From the IMG/VR virus record IMGVR_UViG_3300028384_000368, positions 1 through 22,018 of that record: a stretch of DNA of 22,018 nucleotides, one strand, 5' to 3'. Source of the stretch: a virus. Below, piece after piece: positions 2,336-13,726 of the stretch (positions within the stretch are counted from its first letter, which is position 1; the number at the start of each line of letters is the position of its first letter). The notes under the pieces are model-generated. The model was not told where the DNA came from, made no database searches, and was given only the letters and a program-made list of their open reading frames with translations. The translations under genes and the position numbers were made by a program.

Positions 2336-3007
2336 ATGTGTGGTGTAATTGGTGTATATCTGACTGATGTTGTTGAGGAAGATATTAACCTAGTTGATCG
2401 CATTTTCCGGCAGACCATGATTCGTGGTAAGCATGCCACCGGTGTCACTTATGTGTCTCAAGATGGGTTGAAGACAATCAAAGAACCAGTTCCTGTCACC
2501 GAGTTCCTTAAGAACCATAACATTAAAGACTTCGTTTTTAACGGCGCACTGAAGTTGATCGGTCATATCCGATATTCAACCTCAGACCTTCGGTACAATC
2601 AACCGTTTCAAGGAGATGGTGTATCGATCGCCCATAACGGTGTTATCTCTCAGGATCCCGATATCTGGGAATATAAAACTAAGACGTTTAACGATTCAGA
2701 ATTGATACTTCGATGCATTGAGTCAGGGGATCATCCACTAGAAGTCTACAAAGACCGCAGTATGTCAGTCGTCTCGCTCGAAGAAGATCGACTACATGCA
2801 TTCCGAAATCACGAAAGACCATTGTGGCGAGCAGAACGTTGGAACGGATGCCTGTTTGCTTCTACTCAAGATATTTTTTCTCGTGCTGGGGTTTCCTTTG
2901 GAGTCTCTAAATGCGATCCAATGGTTCATTATAAGTATGATTTGTACAGCGGACTGATTGCTGACACGACATATTATGATCCAGAGTTGGAAGATTTACA
3001 ATGCTAA
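2336..3007 (+). CDS. class II glutamine amidotransferase (223 aa)
   Basis: An N-terminal nucleophile amidotransferase that would hydrolyse glutamine and hand on ammonia. MCGVIG places the catalytic Cys at position 2, to be exposed after Met removal. RGKHATG (30-36), GHIRYST (76-82) and HNG (100-102) match the glutamine site and oxyanion region seen in the GlmS and PurF glutaminase domains. Only the glutaminase domain is present; no synthase or phosphosugar-isomerase domain is fused. It is the first gene of a five-function overlapping operon with acyltransferase, transferase, oxygenase and kinase genes. The likely role is supplying an amine or amide group to a modified DNA base, inferred from this context. 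Confidence 0.88.
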   Translation: MCGVIGVYLTDVVEEDINLVDRIFRQTMIRGKHATGVTYVSQDGLKTIKEPVPVTEFLKNHNIKDFVFNGALKLIGHIRYSTSDLRYNQPFQGDGVSIAHNGVISQDPDIWEYKTKTFNDSELILRCIESGDHPLEVYKDRSMSVVSLEEDRLHAFRNHERPLWRAERWNGCLFASTQDIFSRAGVSFGVSKCDPMVHYKYDLYSGLIADTTYYDPELEDLQC

Positions 3008-3642
3008 ACCGATATACAAAAGAGCAAGTTGAGTCTCTCTTAGAATCTCAACCGGAGGGGCAGAACACTAAGTTCTTAAAGTCTGCACATAACCTTTGGT
3101 TTCGGTTTAAAAATTATGATAAACACCCTCCGTTCGTTCTAGAAGATAACGGTCTTCCTGTTGCTCTTGTTTTCATAACATTTAGTGCCCGAAGCAAGTA
3201 TGCTAACTTGTATGAGATCGTGACTCTTGAAGGCATGGAGGGGAACGGATATGCGTCTAAAGTTTATTGGGCGGTTATGAGTGAGGCTCACAGGCAGGGG
3301 ATGCAGAGACTGAAGATGTCTTGCACACCCAGTTCTGTTACTTGGCACAAACGCAACGGAACACTTTTTTGGGGCGTTGATCCTTCTGGTTCTCTCCGTT
3401 GTAATGTTCCCATTTTTCCCAACCTACATGAGCAACTAACGTTCCGAGAGTTGGCAGTAAAAGACCCTGATTCGGCATTACCTGACTCAAAGACAAGAGA
3501 TCAGTTGAAGTCAGACTCGCTTGAGTCTCATGGGTTTGGGGCAAAGAAAACGGCGAAGGTTGAGCAAGCGATTAATGATGTCGGTGACTATTGGTTACGA
3601 GACGCACTATTTAATGAAAACACACTGGAATCTTTCTTTTGA
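3001..3642 (+). CDS. GNAT-family acyltransferase (213 aa)
   Basis: Residues 45-120 look like a GNAT core: beta strands (PVALVFITFS), then EIVTLEGMEGNGYASKVYW, whose GNGYAS stretch corresponds to the acetyl-CoA pyrophosphate-binding loop (motif A, Q/RxxGxG/A). A helix and MSCTPSSVTWHKRNG follow, matching motif B. The C-terminal ~75 residues are unassigned. It would transfer an acyl group from a CoA donor to an amine. It overlaps the amidotransferase stop by 7 bases and its own stop overlaps the next TTG start, so it belongs to the base-modification operon. The substrate is unknown. Confidence 0.72.
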   Translation: MLNRYTKEQVESLLESQPEGQNTKFLKSAHNLWFRFKNYDKHPPFVLEDNGLPVALVFITFSARSKYANLYEIVTLEGMEGNGYASKVYWAVMSEAHRQGMQRLKMSCTPSSVTWHKRNGTLFWGVDPSGSLRCNVPIFPNLHEQLTFRELAVKDPDSALPDSKTRDQLKSDSLESHGFGAKKTAKVEQAINDVGDYWLRDALFNENTLESFF

Positions 3643-4634
3643 TTGACTACCGCGAAAACCGTAAGGAAGCGTTTGTTGATTGGTTCGGTAAGTCTCTAGA
3701 AATAGAAGACTGCGACTCTGCATTATTCATGACGAACTACTTCTTTGATCGGTTCGAATACAACACAGAGCAAAAACTTTGGTTGTCATGGATATATGGG
3801 ACAACGTACTACTGGCCAACTTCGTATGTGGTCTGGAACGAATTCCCTGATATGGAACTGGTTGGTGTAGACCGACTCACCGAGTGGAACAACGAGAACT
3901 ATAAGCGTCTCCGGTATCAGACTGACACTAAATGGAATAAGGGTCATCTTCCTTCGCAGTTTATCTCATACAAAGAGTTTGTCGGAGAACGCACGCAACG
4001 AGAGGCACTGACCGAGAACTTTGTGGGTGATCCTATAAAAGATTTCTACTCTCTTTGGGACACAGTAAATTCTTGGCATAAGTTCGGTCGATACTCTTCA
4101 TGGTTCTATATCCAGACGCTGAAACAATGCTGTGACATTGACGTCGACGTAGACAGTTTGTGGTTACATGACTACAGTGGTTCTCGTTCTCACCGGAATG
4201 GGCTATGTTATGCAGTCGGTAAGGAAGAGTGGATTGATACGAAACTAGACCAAACTCAGGTCGACTTCCTAGAGTCCGAAGGGCGAGAGTTACTTGCAGA
4301 AGTGAAACAACAATTCCCTAGAGCAAAGGGAAACGCAGACTATTTTGCTATGGAAACCGCGTTGTGTTCCTTCAAGAAGTTATTCCGGAAACGAGATGGT
4401 AGATATCTTGGATACTACCTTGACAGACAGGCAGAAGAAATCAAGAAAGTCGAAAAGGACAATTGGTGTGGTATTGACTGGCAACCAATGTGGGACGCTA
4501 GGCAAGAAAAAATACCAGTAGAGTACTTGACAAACTCGATTGATAAGAGTAGAATGGAGTTATTCTTGGATACTGGAGATTTCGATCCCCAGAATCAATC
4601 TATAGGTTTAGAGGCATTTTATGGAATTAATTGA
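3639..4634 (+). CDS. putative DNA-base hypermodification transferase (331 aa)
   Basis: I recognise this only by resemblance to proteins found beside hydroxymethyluracil DNA kinases in T4-like phages, described as alpha-glutamyl/putrescinyl thymine pyrophosphorylase-like (aGPT-PPlase). Those replace the pyrophosphate on an activated base with an amino acid or amine. Notable motifs are WLSWIYGTTYYWPTSY (48-63), YQTDTKW (93-99), FGRYSSWFYIQTL (149-161) and SRSHRNGLCYAVGKE (182-196). The protein is soluble, rich in Trp and Tyr, and helical. It starts at TTG 3639, inside the previous stop, with GGAA (3627-3630) eight bases upstream; no in-frame ATG exists nearby. The kinase lies two genes downstream. 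Substrate and catalytic residues are not established here. Confidence 0.6.
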   Translation: MIDYRENRKEAFVDWFGKSLEIEDCDSALFMTNYFFDRFEYNTEQKLWLSWIYGTTYYWPTSYVVWNEFPDMELVGVDRLTEWNNENYKRLRYQTDTKWNKGHLPSQFISYKEFVGERTQREALTENFVGDPIKDFYSLWDTVNSWHKFGRYSSWFYIQTLKQCCDIDVDVDSLWLHDYSGSRSHRNGLCYAVGKEEWIDTKLDQTQVDFLESEGRELLAEVKQQFPRAKGNADYFAMETALCSFKKLFRKRDGRYLGYYLDRQAEEIKKVEKDNWCGIDWQPMWDARQEKIPVEYLTNSIDKSRMELFLDTGDFDPQNQSIGLEAFYGIN

Positions 4635-5655
4635 AATTAATGGTCGCTCTTGGAAGAAGTACAAGGGTGACGAAGGGCAGGATGTTTACGTTGCCCAGTT
4701 TGTAGAACCACAAGAAAAGATCTTGGGTCAGTTCGCAAACGAAGAGTCATATGATATTTTAGTTGATGGGGATACCGATTTCTATCTTCCATCAGGTAAT
4801 GCGATGTTCAACGACACTCCCATTGAAGATGAGTCTAATGTCGCGTTCAAGTTTCGCAAAAACGTATTCAGTCAGGAAGAGCAAGACGGTGCGTTTGAGG
4901 GTTTATTCGATGCTGCGATCGAGTCTAACAACCGAGGTATGGCAGCAGGACCACGCGAGGAAACTCAGGGCAACCGTGACTGGGTGACTGGATTCCAGCA
5001 AGACGTTCTTGCTTGGTATGAGCAGAACCAACCACTTGATCTAGAAGGTGGGGATATGCTCGAGAATTTTGCTAAGAAACACGAGAAAGCAGAAGACGAG
5101 ATCCGTGGTGGTGTTTGGTTGCGCACCAAGGTCGAACCAGAGTTCGGCACATACAAAGAGTTTTTTCCGAAGATGATGGACAAACTTGCCAGCATGTCAA
5201 TTGAAGAAGCGTCAGATTATGCCAAAAATGTTAGGAAGGAGATGATTTCTTCGACTAACTACGCGACTGCTATCTGGTCAGGCATCGCTGGGTTCTATGG
5301 TCGATACCCTCGTATCCCATATGGTCGTGCGACAGCATATACCGACCATCATCGTGAGAAGTTTGAGAAGTGCTACCCGTTCGCGCGCAGACTCGATAAA
5401 GTATTCCGTGAGTTGCTACCAAACCGTTATCGCAATCAGAAAGAGTTTTCGGACCAACTTGATAATAAGTTCTTGATTGGCGAGGACACAACCTTTACCA
5501 CGATCACCGTCAACACAACTACCAGCGAACGTAATGCTAGAATGGCATGCCACCGAGACGCTGGGTCACTTAACGAAGGGTTTTCAAACCTGACCGTGAT
5601 CAGTGACGGTAAGAAAGACTGGAAGGGTGGGTATCTCTACTGCGTATGTCGCTAG
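4621..5655 (+). pseudogene. TET/JBP-type 2-oxoglutarate/Fe(II) dioxygenase, N-terminal fragment (344 aa)
   Basis: Residues 215-335 match phage members of the TET/JBP oxygenases that hydroxylate the methyl group of thymine or 5-methylcytosine in DNA. Key stretches are IPYGRATAYTDHHREKFEK (232-250), FTTITVNT (292-299), and the iron-binding H311-R-D313 followed by AGSLNEGFSNLTVISDG. Residues 1-210 form a family-typical N-terminal region. The reading frame then fails: after GGYLY it runs into TAG at 5653. The expected next ~50 residues, with the distal His of the HxD...H triad, are not found in any frame. The frame containing LLRMSLVFYFRE, the normal C-terminal continuation, is entered at about 5634. 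An internal deletion that also shifted frame explains this best; a sequencing or assembly error is the alternative. Confidence 0.8.
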
Positions 5656-5918
5656 TGTTCTACTTTCGTGAAGATATGATGAAACTTGGTTCTTGGGACT
5701 ATGAGCACCTTCGTCGCGCATTTGTTGATGACCGTCGCAAGAATGAAGATCACGAACTGTGGCGTCCATACTGGAACGGTGTCTCGCCGAGTATGTGGGA
5801 TACAGAAGAATGGTTTGAGTACTTGACTCAACACGGTGGAGAGGATATGCTTCGTCTCTATCATCCTAAAGCAGCTGCGATGAAAGAAGAAATATCACTT
5901 GAGGACTTTTTCGCATGA
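5646..5918 (+). pseudogene. C-terminal fragment of the TET/JBP oxygenase (90 aa)
   Basis: SLVFYFRED at the start matches the last beta strand of TET/JBP oxygenases. The following ~80 residues (FVDDRRKN, WRPYWNGVSPSMWDTEEW, and a tail ending SLEDFFA) look like the usual C-terminal extension of the phage family. It lies in the -1 frame relative to the upstream fragment. The codon for the 2-oxoglutarate-binding Arg (CGT 5643-5645) is just before this ATG, so a separately started peptide would lack it. A weak AAGGGTGGG lies about 14 bases upstream. The stop overlaps the kinase ATG, so the original operon coupling is preserved. On its own the fragment cannot be a working enzyme. Confidence 0.78.
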
Positions 5919-6472
5919 AAATCTTTTACATCATTGGTATGCCTGGAACTGGTAAGTCGACCATTATGAAAGAACTGATGAGTCGGTTCAATGACTGGAA
6001 ACAAGAACGAGTTGTTGAATTACTTGATACGCACGTGACAGGAAACTTGCGTGTTCTGGGAAAGTACCAAGATGATGGCGAAGGGACTTTCGACGGCACT
6101 GACAGATTGAGTATGGCAGTTCCACCCAGAGCAGTAGACTGGATCTCGACTCGACCTGATGAGTTCATAGTTGGAGAAGGCGACCGGCTTAACAACAAGA
6201 CATTTTTTCATTGCTGTGAACCTCACCTAACCATAGTCCACATAACTTCCTCTGATGAAGAACGTGAACGTCGATATGAGCAGAGAGGATCAAACCAGTC
6301 AGAGAAGTTCATCAAGACGACTCAAACCAAATGTCAGAACATCATTGAGCAATTTGGTGATAAGCAAACAGTCTTTGGCGAGGAGAAGGGTTGTGTTGTT
6401 GACTTCAAACACGAGAAGCCCGAAGACACCAAGTCTATTGTAGACTATATACTGAAAAGTTATAGACCATAA
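5915..6472 (+). CDS. P-loop kinase, 5-hydroxymethyluracil DNA kinase-like (185 aa)
   Basis: The Walker A motif is GMPGTGKST (8-16). Further motifs LGKY (48-51), DGTDRLSM (60-67) and GEGDRL (87-92), plus a C-terminal RGSNQSEKF...TKCQNI region, are those I associate with phage kinases that phosphorylate 5-hydroxymethyl-dU in DNA (HMUDK), the activating step of thymine hypermodification. It starts at ATG 5915 overlapping the oxygenase C-fragment stop (ATGA). It is the last gene of the operon and appears intact, as do the amidotransferase, GNAT and transferase genes, although the oxygenase is broken. If the oxygenase is truly dead, the kinase would need hydroxymethylated bases from another source. 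Confidence 0.8.
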   Translation: MKIFYIIGMPGTGKSTIMKELMSRFNDWKQERVVELLDTHVTGNLRVLGKYQDDGEGTFDGTDRLSMAVPPRAVDWISTRPDEFIVGEGDRLNNKTFFHCCEPHLTIVHITSSDEERERRYEQRGSNQSEKFIKTTQTKCQNIIEQFGDKQTVFGEEKGCVVDFKHEKPEDTKSIVDYILKSYRP

Positions 6473-6532: not shown

Positions 6533-6561
6533 TCTTCTCTAAATTGATGAGGACTTTTGAT

Positions 6562-7023
6562 ATGAGAGAAGAACGCGTAATAAGTGGGATAAAATATAGA
6601 ACCCCTTACTATAAAGGAGAGATGCTGAAAAATTATCTGGTTTCTTCTTGTGGGAAAATCTATAGTCTACTGACAAGTAAGTTTCTGACGCCTACGGTTA
6701 GCGGCAACACAGCATACCCCAGAGTGGGAATACGGTTGAATGGTAAATCTAAGCATCCAAATGTACATCAGTTAGTGGCGTCTGCTTGGGTTAAAAAACC
6801 AATACCTGAAGGAATATCCAAAGAAATTTGGATCAAAACCCCAGCAGAAGTAAAATTCTTGATAGACAGAGATCTTTGGGAAATTGATCACATCAATACT
6901 ATTAAGGATGATTTTCGCGCTGAAAACCTTCGATGGGTTTCTAGAAGTAAAAATAAATCTGTTTACTATAATGAACAGAAACCTATTTTGGAATCTTCTA
7001 CACTTGAAGAGTTTTTAGCCTGA
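6562..7023 (+). CDS. NUMOD4-HNH homing endonuclease (153 aa)
   Basis: A free-standing homing endonuclease. Residues 25-76 (YLVSSCGKIYS ... HQLVASAW) match the NUMOD4-type segment common in T4-like phages. Residues 107-128 (WEIDHINTIKDDFRAENLRW) carry the HNH catalytic stretch, with D109, H110, N112 and N122 as the metal and nucleophile-activating positions. ATG 6562 is chosen because GAGG (6549-6552) sits 9 bases before it; an ATG at 6547 would overlap that site. It lies directly behind the base-modification operon with its own promoter. Composition is AT-rich relative to the operon, consistent with recent insertion. Confidence 0.88.
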   Translation: MREERVISGIKYRTPYYKGEMLKNYLVSSCGKIYSLLTSKFLTPTVSGNTAYPRVGIRLNGKSKHPNVHQLVASAWVKKPIPEGISKEIWIKTPAEVKFLIDRDLWEIDHINTIKDDFRAENLRWVSRSKNKSVYYNEQKPILESSTLEEFLA

Positions 7024-12307: not shown

Positions 12308-13726
12308 ATGAAGAAACTACTAACTGTAGCTGTGTCTACTGCACTTCTAAGTGCGTGTTCTGGTGGAGGTTCTGACACCCCACCGCCCGTCGTGGCAGAT
12401 CCTGTCACATCCACGCCCGTAACGACACCCGTCGACCCCGCAGTCGAGGCACGTGACAATCTACTCACGTTACTTGACTCTACGTCACCGACAGGTACTT
12501 ACGAGGCATACATCCTACCCGCAAGTGATGACTTCGACAACATCCCGCAGGATCCCAGCAATGAGATCACCGCAGAGAAAGTCGCACTAGGCAAGTTGAT
12601 TTATCACGAAACTGGTATCACTGAAGGTGATATCGGACCTAGTGAGAGCACGTTCTCATGTGCGTCATGCCACAATGCACAGAACGGATTCAAGTCTGGT
12701 ATCCGTCAGGGTATCGGTGAAGGCGGTATCGGTTTCGATCACCGCATGGTGATGGAGGGTATCAATCCCGAAGACATCGATGTGCAACCTGTTGCATCAC
12801 CCACTGTACTCAACACGGCATTCCAAGAAGTGATGTTGTGGAATGGTCAGTTAGGTAATGTGATTGCGGGTAATGTCAATGTTGGTATTGATCCCGATCG
12901 TCACTTCACAGAAGGTACTCCGAAAGAAGCAAACCTACGCAACTTTGCTGGTCTAGAGACACAAGCAGTTGCGGGTCTAGGTGTGCATCGTCAGGGTGAC
13001 ACAGATGATTCTATCCTGCGCACTAACGAAACTTATCGTGAGATGTTTGAATCTGCGTACGGTGTCGCAGAACCCGACGATATGTTAGAAGCGACTGCAC
13101 TGGCGATCGCCGCATACGAACGCACGATTCTTGCAAACCAAGCACCTTTCCAAGCATACTTGAAAGGCGACGAAACTGCGATGACTGAATCTGAAGTCGC
13201 TGGTGCAGAAGTGTTCTTTGGTAAGGGTAACTGTTATGCGTGTCATAACGGACCTGCGTTGTCATCTCCCGTTGGTGCGATGGCAGACGAAGTGTTCATG
13301 ACTGTCGGGTTCCATGATCTTGACATCTGGGAAGACACCATCGGTGAAGTTAATGAATCGACAAAGTTAGGTCGTGGTGGTTTCACAGGAGATGACCTTG
13401 ATCAATTTAAGTTCAAAGTTCCTCCGCTTTATAATCTTATAGATACAGAAGTATTTGGACACGGCGCTTCGTTTACATCCGTAGAAGAAGTGGTTCGATA
13501 TAAGGTGACTGCAATTCCGCAACACCCACAAGTAGAGATCAGTGATCTTGATTATAGGTTTACGCCAGTGGACTTAACAGAAGAAGAAATCGCTAATTTG
13601 ATCGAATTCCTTGAGAAGAGTTTGCACGATTCTGACTTGATGCGGTATGTGCCTGAGTCTCTACCAAGTGGTAACTGCCCTATCAATAATGACGAAGAAT
13701 CCCGTCAAGAGTTGGGTTGCGACTAA
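12308..13726 (+). CDS. di-haem cytochrome c peroxidase lipoprotein (472 aa)
   Basis: It would reduce periplasmic hydrogen peroxide to water with electrons from cytochrome c or a similar donor. The lipobox LLSAC (Cys17) and a Pro/Thr-rich linker (20-50) anchor it to the envelope. Two haem-c sites are present, CASCH (118-122) and CYACH (309-313), in the order and spacing of CcpA/MauG proteins. The family pattern SPTVLNTAFQEVMLWNG (164-180) and KVPPLYNL followed by H385 also fits. At 472 residues it is longer than typical CcpA (about 330) because of the linker and C-terminal extension. Haem attachment needs the host cytochrome c maturation system. It has its own promoter and ribosome site (GAGAGGA). 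This is an unusual phage gene. Confidence 0.92.
   Translation: MKKLLTVAVSTALLSACSGGGSDTPPPVVADPVTSTPVTTPVDPAVEARDNLLTLLDSTSPTGTYEAYILPASDDFDNIPQDPSNEITAEKVALGKLIYHETGITEGDIGPSESTFSCASCHNAQNGFKSGIRQGIGEGGIGFDHRMVMEGINPEDIDVQPVASPTVLNTAFQEVMLWNGQLGNVIAGNVNVGIDPDRHFTEGTPKEANLRNFAGLETQAVAGLGVHRQGDTDDSILRTNETYREMFESAYGVAEPDDMLEATALAIAAYERTILANQAPFQAYLKGDETAMTESEVAGAEVFFGKGNCYACHNGPALSSPVGAMADEVFMTVGFHDLDIWEDTIGEVNESTKLGRGGFTGDDLDQFKFKVPPLYNLIDTEVFGHGASFTSVEEVVRYKVTAIPQHPQVEISDLDYRFTPVDLTEEEIANLIEFLEKSLHDSDLMRYVPESLPSGNCPINNDEESRQELGCD

Follow-up and report, generated by a model that had tools for sequence, protein, structure and literature searches.

The window analysed here is an entire IMG/VR virus record of 22,018 bp, linear and without end repeats, and the question it raises is whether a phage has lost the TET/JBP-type oxygenase that would start its DNA hypermodification or whether the broken gene seen in the record is a product of sequencing and assembly. 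Among named relatives, the 156-kb Phage C48C1 is the closest, with 87.5% identity across the 58% of the window that it covers, while IMG/VR contigs nearer to the window than C48C1 reach 88–90% identity, and no relatives were found among bacterial genome contigs. Every other window ORF that was compared with relatives has its full length, which speaks against poor sequence quality overall.

The first-pass annotation had described an oxygenase gene at 4621–5918 broken by an internal deletion plus frameshift, and alignment confirmed this, as ORF1 and ORF2 represent opposite ends of a single gene from which exactly 121 nt are missing when compared to C48C1 and to the close relatives L005, L006, L007, L008, and L009. 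The flanks of the junction are colinear with the relatives with zero inserted sequence, and both breakpoints have the dinucleotide TC (5636–5637) in common in L006-like relatives. A homing element inserted in the gene was ruled out by this pure deletion, and slippage between longer direct repeats was ruled out by the 2 nt that the breakpoints have in common. In the numbering of the relatives, residues 1–339 are kept in ORF1, residues 340–379 (40 residues) are deleted, and residues 380–472 follow in another frame. As annotated, ORF1 contains the HxD site HRDAG (His311 and Asp313) and stops at the TAG of 5653–5655, which is preceded by a tail of five out-of-frame residues, YCVCR. The C-terminal piece is in the −1 frame, as had been claimed, but resumes at 5637 rather than at about 5634, and the loss of the distal, iron-binding His365, which accompanies the shift in frame, is correct while the estimate of about 50 missing residues is not. 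ORF2 (5646–5918, 90 aa) starts from an ATG that overlaps the ORF1 stop. The Arg382 codon (CGT, 5643–5645) survives in the DNA one codon upstream of this ATG and out of frame with ORF1, so the fragment does exclude the 2-oxoglutarate-binding Arg. Profile matches are split in the same way, with ORF1 matching positions 6–308 and ORF2 positions 349–427 of phrog_24024 (433 positions), and the Pfam Tet_JBP match in ORF1 covers only profile positions 27–114 of 164 at 29 bits, under the cut-off of 34.9.

Table 1 Features of the broken oxygenase gene and its neighbours in the window
Feature	Position	Strand	Remarks
Glutamine amidotransferase domain protein (GATase_6)	2336..3007	+	Cassette member
GNAT acetyltransferase	3001..3642	+	Cassette member
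ADDT amino acid:DNA transferase	3639..4634	+	PF18724, 81.5 bits; cassette member
N-terminal TET/JBP ORF1	4621..5655	+	344 aa, of which 339 are homologous to those of relatives
Deletion junction	5636..5637	+	121 nt of all close relatives missing; 2-nt (TC) ambiguity
C-terminal TET/JBP remainder	5637..5918	+	Relative residues 380–472
P-loop nucleotide kinase 3, putative hydroxymethyl-base DNA kinase	5915..6472	+	PF18751, Ploopntkinase3, 61.5 bits; cassette member

The ancestral gene belongs to the TET/JBP family by both sequence and fold match. The intact relative L005 matches Pfam Tet_JBP (PF12851) over profile positions 27–164 with 61 bits against the cut-off of 34.9, and a profile built from 43 relatives matches TET2 in the PDB (E = 2e-4). 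In the TET2 alignment, HRD pairs with HRD, HATTP with H365GNTP, and RISLVFY with R382MSLVFY, the last identifying Arg382 as the 2-oxoglutarate-binding Arg. An AlphaFold2 model of an intact relative has a pLDDT of 80, and the best 26 PDB matches to this model are all TET enzymes (CcTet, NgTET1, CMD1, and TET2). Genes of C48C1 (OQ984149.1), Stenotrophomonas phage DLP6, and Caulobacter phage Cr30 fall in the same phage TET/JBP family (PF12851; phrog_24024), and the window copy is 92% identical to that of C48C1 across 339 residues, with the HxD motif and the C-terminal helical region alike; unlike the C48C1-type gene, it is frameshifted and has lost residues 340–379.

Four residues, His311, Asp313, His365, and Arg382, do not vary across the 60 distinct full-length relatives compared (60/60), and no broken copy was found besides that of the window. 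In the window, the HxD…H iron triad is incomplete, as His311 and Asp313 are there and His365 is deleted, and Arg and HxD are not on one polypeptide, as the Arg382 codon is out of frame with ORF1 and precedes the ATG of ORF2. The deletion also takes the modelled strands at 339–341, 346–348, 355–359, and 365–367. From the established chemistry of 2-oxoglutarate dioxygenases, we strongly infer that no hydroxylase can be produced from the window sequence; the proposal that the enzyme is dead is thus supported for the gene as assembled, which, judged from its sequence, should be inactive without His365.

The age of the break was estimated from changes unique to the window, counted at codons where four relatives agree. 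Over the first 339 codons, the window's lineage has 24 synonymous and 0 nonsynonymous changes, which, with the neutral nonsynonymous-to-synonymous opportunity set at 3.4 and on the assumption that ORF1 is not functional by itself, limits neutral drift to about 3.6% of the branch or less (95% bound). This indicates that the deletion is either very young or an artefact, and long-term pseudogene decay was ruled out on the same count. The C-terminal piece has 5 nonsynonymous and 7 synonymous unique differences over 90 codons, a small sample for such a count, in a region that evolves faster in all relatives. The dN/dS of the other cassette genes against their closest relatives is around 0.03–0.08, indicating strong purifying selection. 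With drift confined to about 4% of the branch or less and the cassette under such selection, the suggestion that the phage is losing its hypermodification fits poorly as a gradual process, while a very recent loss or a wrong assembly would fit. A search of IMG/VR for the junction sequence, with a tool that may skip the records most similar to that of the window, gave no second example, and the occurrence of the same deletion in another sample was rejected on this basis.

Given these results, we lean, by a little, towards the contig being a null allele of the phage TET/JBP gene that arose through a recent, real loss. The gene would have been intact until very recently, when a single 121-nt deletion, with ends nearly without homology, would have taken out the distal Fe ligand together with several strands from the core of the double-stranded beta-helix. 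The colinear flanks, the full length of the remaining compared ORFs, and the presence of all four residues in each of the 60 relatives were counted in favour of a null allele, which is weakened by its occurrence in a single contig and by a selection pattern also expected from an artefact in a healthy gene. Such an artefact, in which a chimeric or slipped read from assembly or library preparation joined points 121 nt apart in a gene that is truly intact, has a substantial chance of being correct, if a smaller one than a real loss. It would account for a break seen in 1 contig when 60 of 60 distinct relatives are intact, and for the 0 nonsynonymous changes over 339 codons, as purifying selection right up to the tip is what a healthy gene looks like; the 2 nt common to the breakpoints are typical of chimeras and of illegitimate deletions alike. 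However, a k-mer assembler had no repeat here to collapse and must have had reads crossing the junction, and the remaining compared genes are undamaged. A further step, that the deletion is real and has also gone to fixation in a population of phages that only recently ceased to hypermodify their bases but still keep the downstream enzymes, seems rather unlikely; host defence aimed at the modified base is one example of what could have driven it.

Two other explanations keep a function for the broken gene. The persistence of purifying selection on the N-terminal part, and the ATG at 5646 overlapping the ORF1 stop, which makes re-initiation possible, are what might be expected if the 344-aa product, comprising the N-terminal domain and half of the oxygenase domain, or both pieces, had been retained in a structural, DNA-binding, or partner role rather than for hydroxylation. 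This retention, which the first-pass annotation had offered as an alternative, is improbable and fits poorly, since drift can account for no more than about 4% of the branch, the short form occurs in no relative, substitutions suggesting adaptation after the deletion are absent, and a product that has lost several core strands of the model would be unlikely to fold. Homologues of the same short architecture had been named as evidence against a broken gene, and none exists among the 60 distinct relatives. The position of the second piece in the −1 frame could also suggest that −1 frameshifting rescues expression and gives a shorter active enzyme, but this has next to no probability and programmed frameshifting was rejected, as 5501–5700 contains no −1 slippery heptamer in the correct frame and the fusion product would still be without the invariant His365.

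The oxygenase gene lies in a putative pyrimidine hypermodification cassette, as genes for an ADDT and a predicted hydroxymethyl-base DNA kinase adjoin it. Starts and stops overlap among the TET/JBP gene and the flanking amidotransferase, GNAT, ADDT, and kinase genes, and all four neighbours are full length, in agreement with the initial description of an otherwise intact operon with coupled starts and stops. The identical five-gene set, in varying order, recurs in dozens of IMG/VR contigs. Among 12 long relatives, several of which are fragments, each record has exactly one Tet_JBP gene (12/12), while 9 encode ADDT and 8 encode the kinase; some relatives also have further 2-oxoglutarate oxygenases belonging to another Pfam family. 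A C5-cytosine methyltransferase (PF00145, DNA_methylase) was found in none of the 12 with positive search controls, and a thymidylate-synthase-family gene (Thymidylat_synt) in Cr30 only, so that in 11 of the 12 the TET/JBP gene is accompanied by no gene for a pyrimidine hydroxymethylase or a C5-methyltransferase. This makes thymine the likely substrate, with no backup route seen, and the TET/JBP enzyme of this group probably oxidises thymine in DNA. The lack of a phage C5-methyltransferase giving 5mC agrees with a JBP-type enzyme, an indirect indication as the host could supply 5mC.

From the named families, the pathway would begin with oxidation of the base 5-methyl group in DNA by TET/JBP, most likely converting thymine to 5-hydroxymethyluracil, after which the kinase would phosphorylate the hydroxymethyl group, and ADDT would swap the phosphate for an amino acid, with possible tailoring of the latter by the GNAT and amidotransferase proteins. 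As TET/JBP would make the hydroxymethyl base, losing this enzyme would leave the kinase and transferase with nothing to act on and should block the pathway; a backup hydroxylase could be encoded in the phage genome beyond the 22-kb record. If the deletion is real, hypermodified bases should be scarce or absent in this phage although its downstream enzymes are intact, and it would represent a natural mutant in the first step of a pathway started by TET/JBP, revealing if phages of this type can live on unmodified DNA. Should the deletion be an artefact, the TET/JBP gene is ordinary for its phage group.

Both the gene family and this kind of cassette are already known. Phages M6, ViI, and phiW-14 are thought to incorporate 5hmdU, followed by the action of a 5hmdU DNA kinase and then transferases (PMC6449724), and the window resembles these thymidine hypermodification systems in having a P-loop kinase and ADDT within one cassette. 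Whereas 5hmdU is believed to be made in these phages as a free nucleotide, in the window's group TET/JBP appears to take over that step, and the enzyme of the recurrent cassette is predicted to supply the 5-hydroxymethyl pyrimidine in place of a nucleotide-level hydroxymethylase. ADDT relatives below 60% identity come from 376 phage records, mostly of Salmonella, Vibrio, Klebsiella, and other enterobacterial phages. Rhodococcus phage Tonitrus has a predicted thymidine hypermodification cluster with a TET-like J-binding protein and a 5-hmU DNA kinase (PMC11955845), a predicted pairing also seen in the window cassette. Tonitrus uses an aGPT-PPlase2 domain protein where the window has ADDT, and its TET gene is not reported as broken (PMC11955845).

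The cassette of C48C1 (OQ984149.1, 4501–7948, compared with window 2336–6472) contains the same TET/JBP gene, 93% identical to that of L005, with ADDT and the kinase absent throughout the genome. Downstream of this gene are a 344-aa protein without a Pfam match and a UDP-galactopyranose mutase gene, which suggests that a sugar, perhaps galactofuranose, and not an amino acid is placed on the hydroxymethyl base, with modules swapped around a constant oxidase. In L007 (4827–5171) and L009 (7413–7691), ~280–340 bp separate TET/JBP from the kinase, as compared to the direct start/stop overlap in the window.

Two HNH genes also lie near the cassette. At 1436–2222, the 5′ half of a tRNA-Asn(GTT) resembling the intact gene of C48C1 ends directly after the anticodon loop and is followed by an HNH ORF (1529–2146) and a complete but different tRNA-Asn(GTT) (2141–2222), an arrangement that suggests an HNH element which interrupted the old tRNA-Asn and carries a replacement. 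A second HNH endonuclease (NUMOD4/HNH_3) lies directly downstream of the kinase at 6544–7023, with counterparts in L006 and L027. Elsewhere in this phage contig, the product of 12308–13726 is predicted to be a lipoprotein and has a domain of the di-haem cytochrome c peroxidase type (CCP_MauG), and a peroxiredoxin gene is present at 449–1045.
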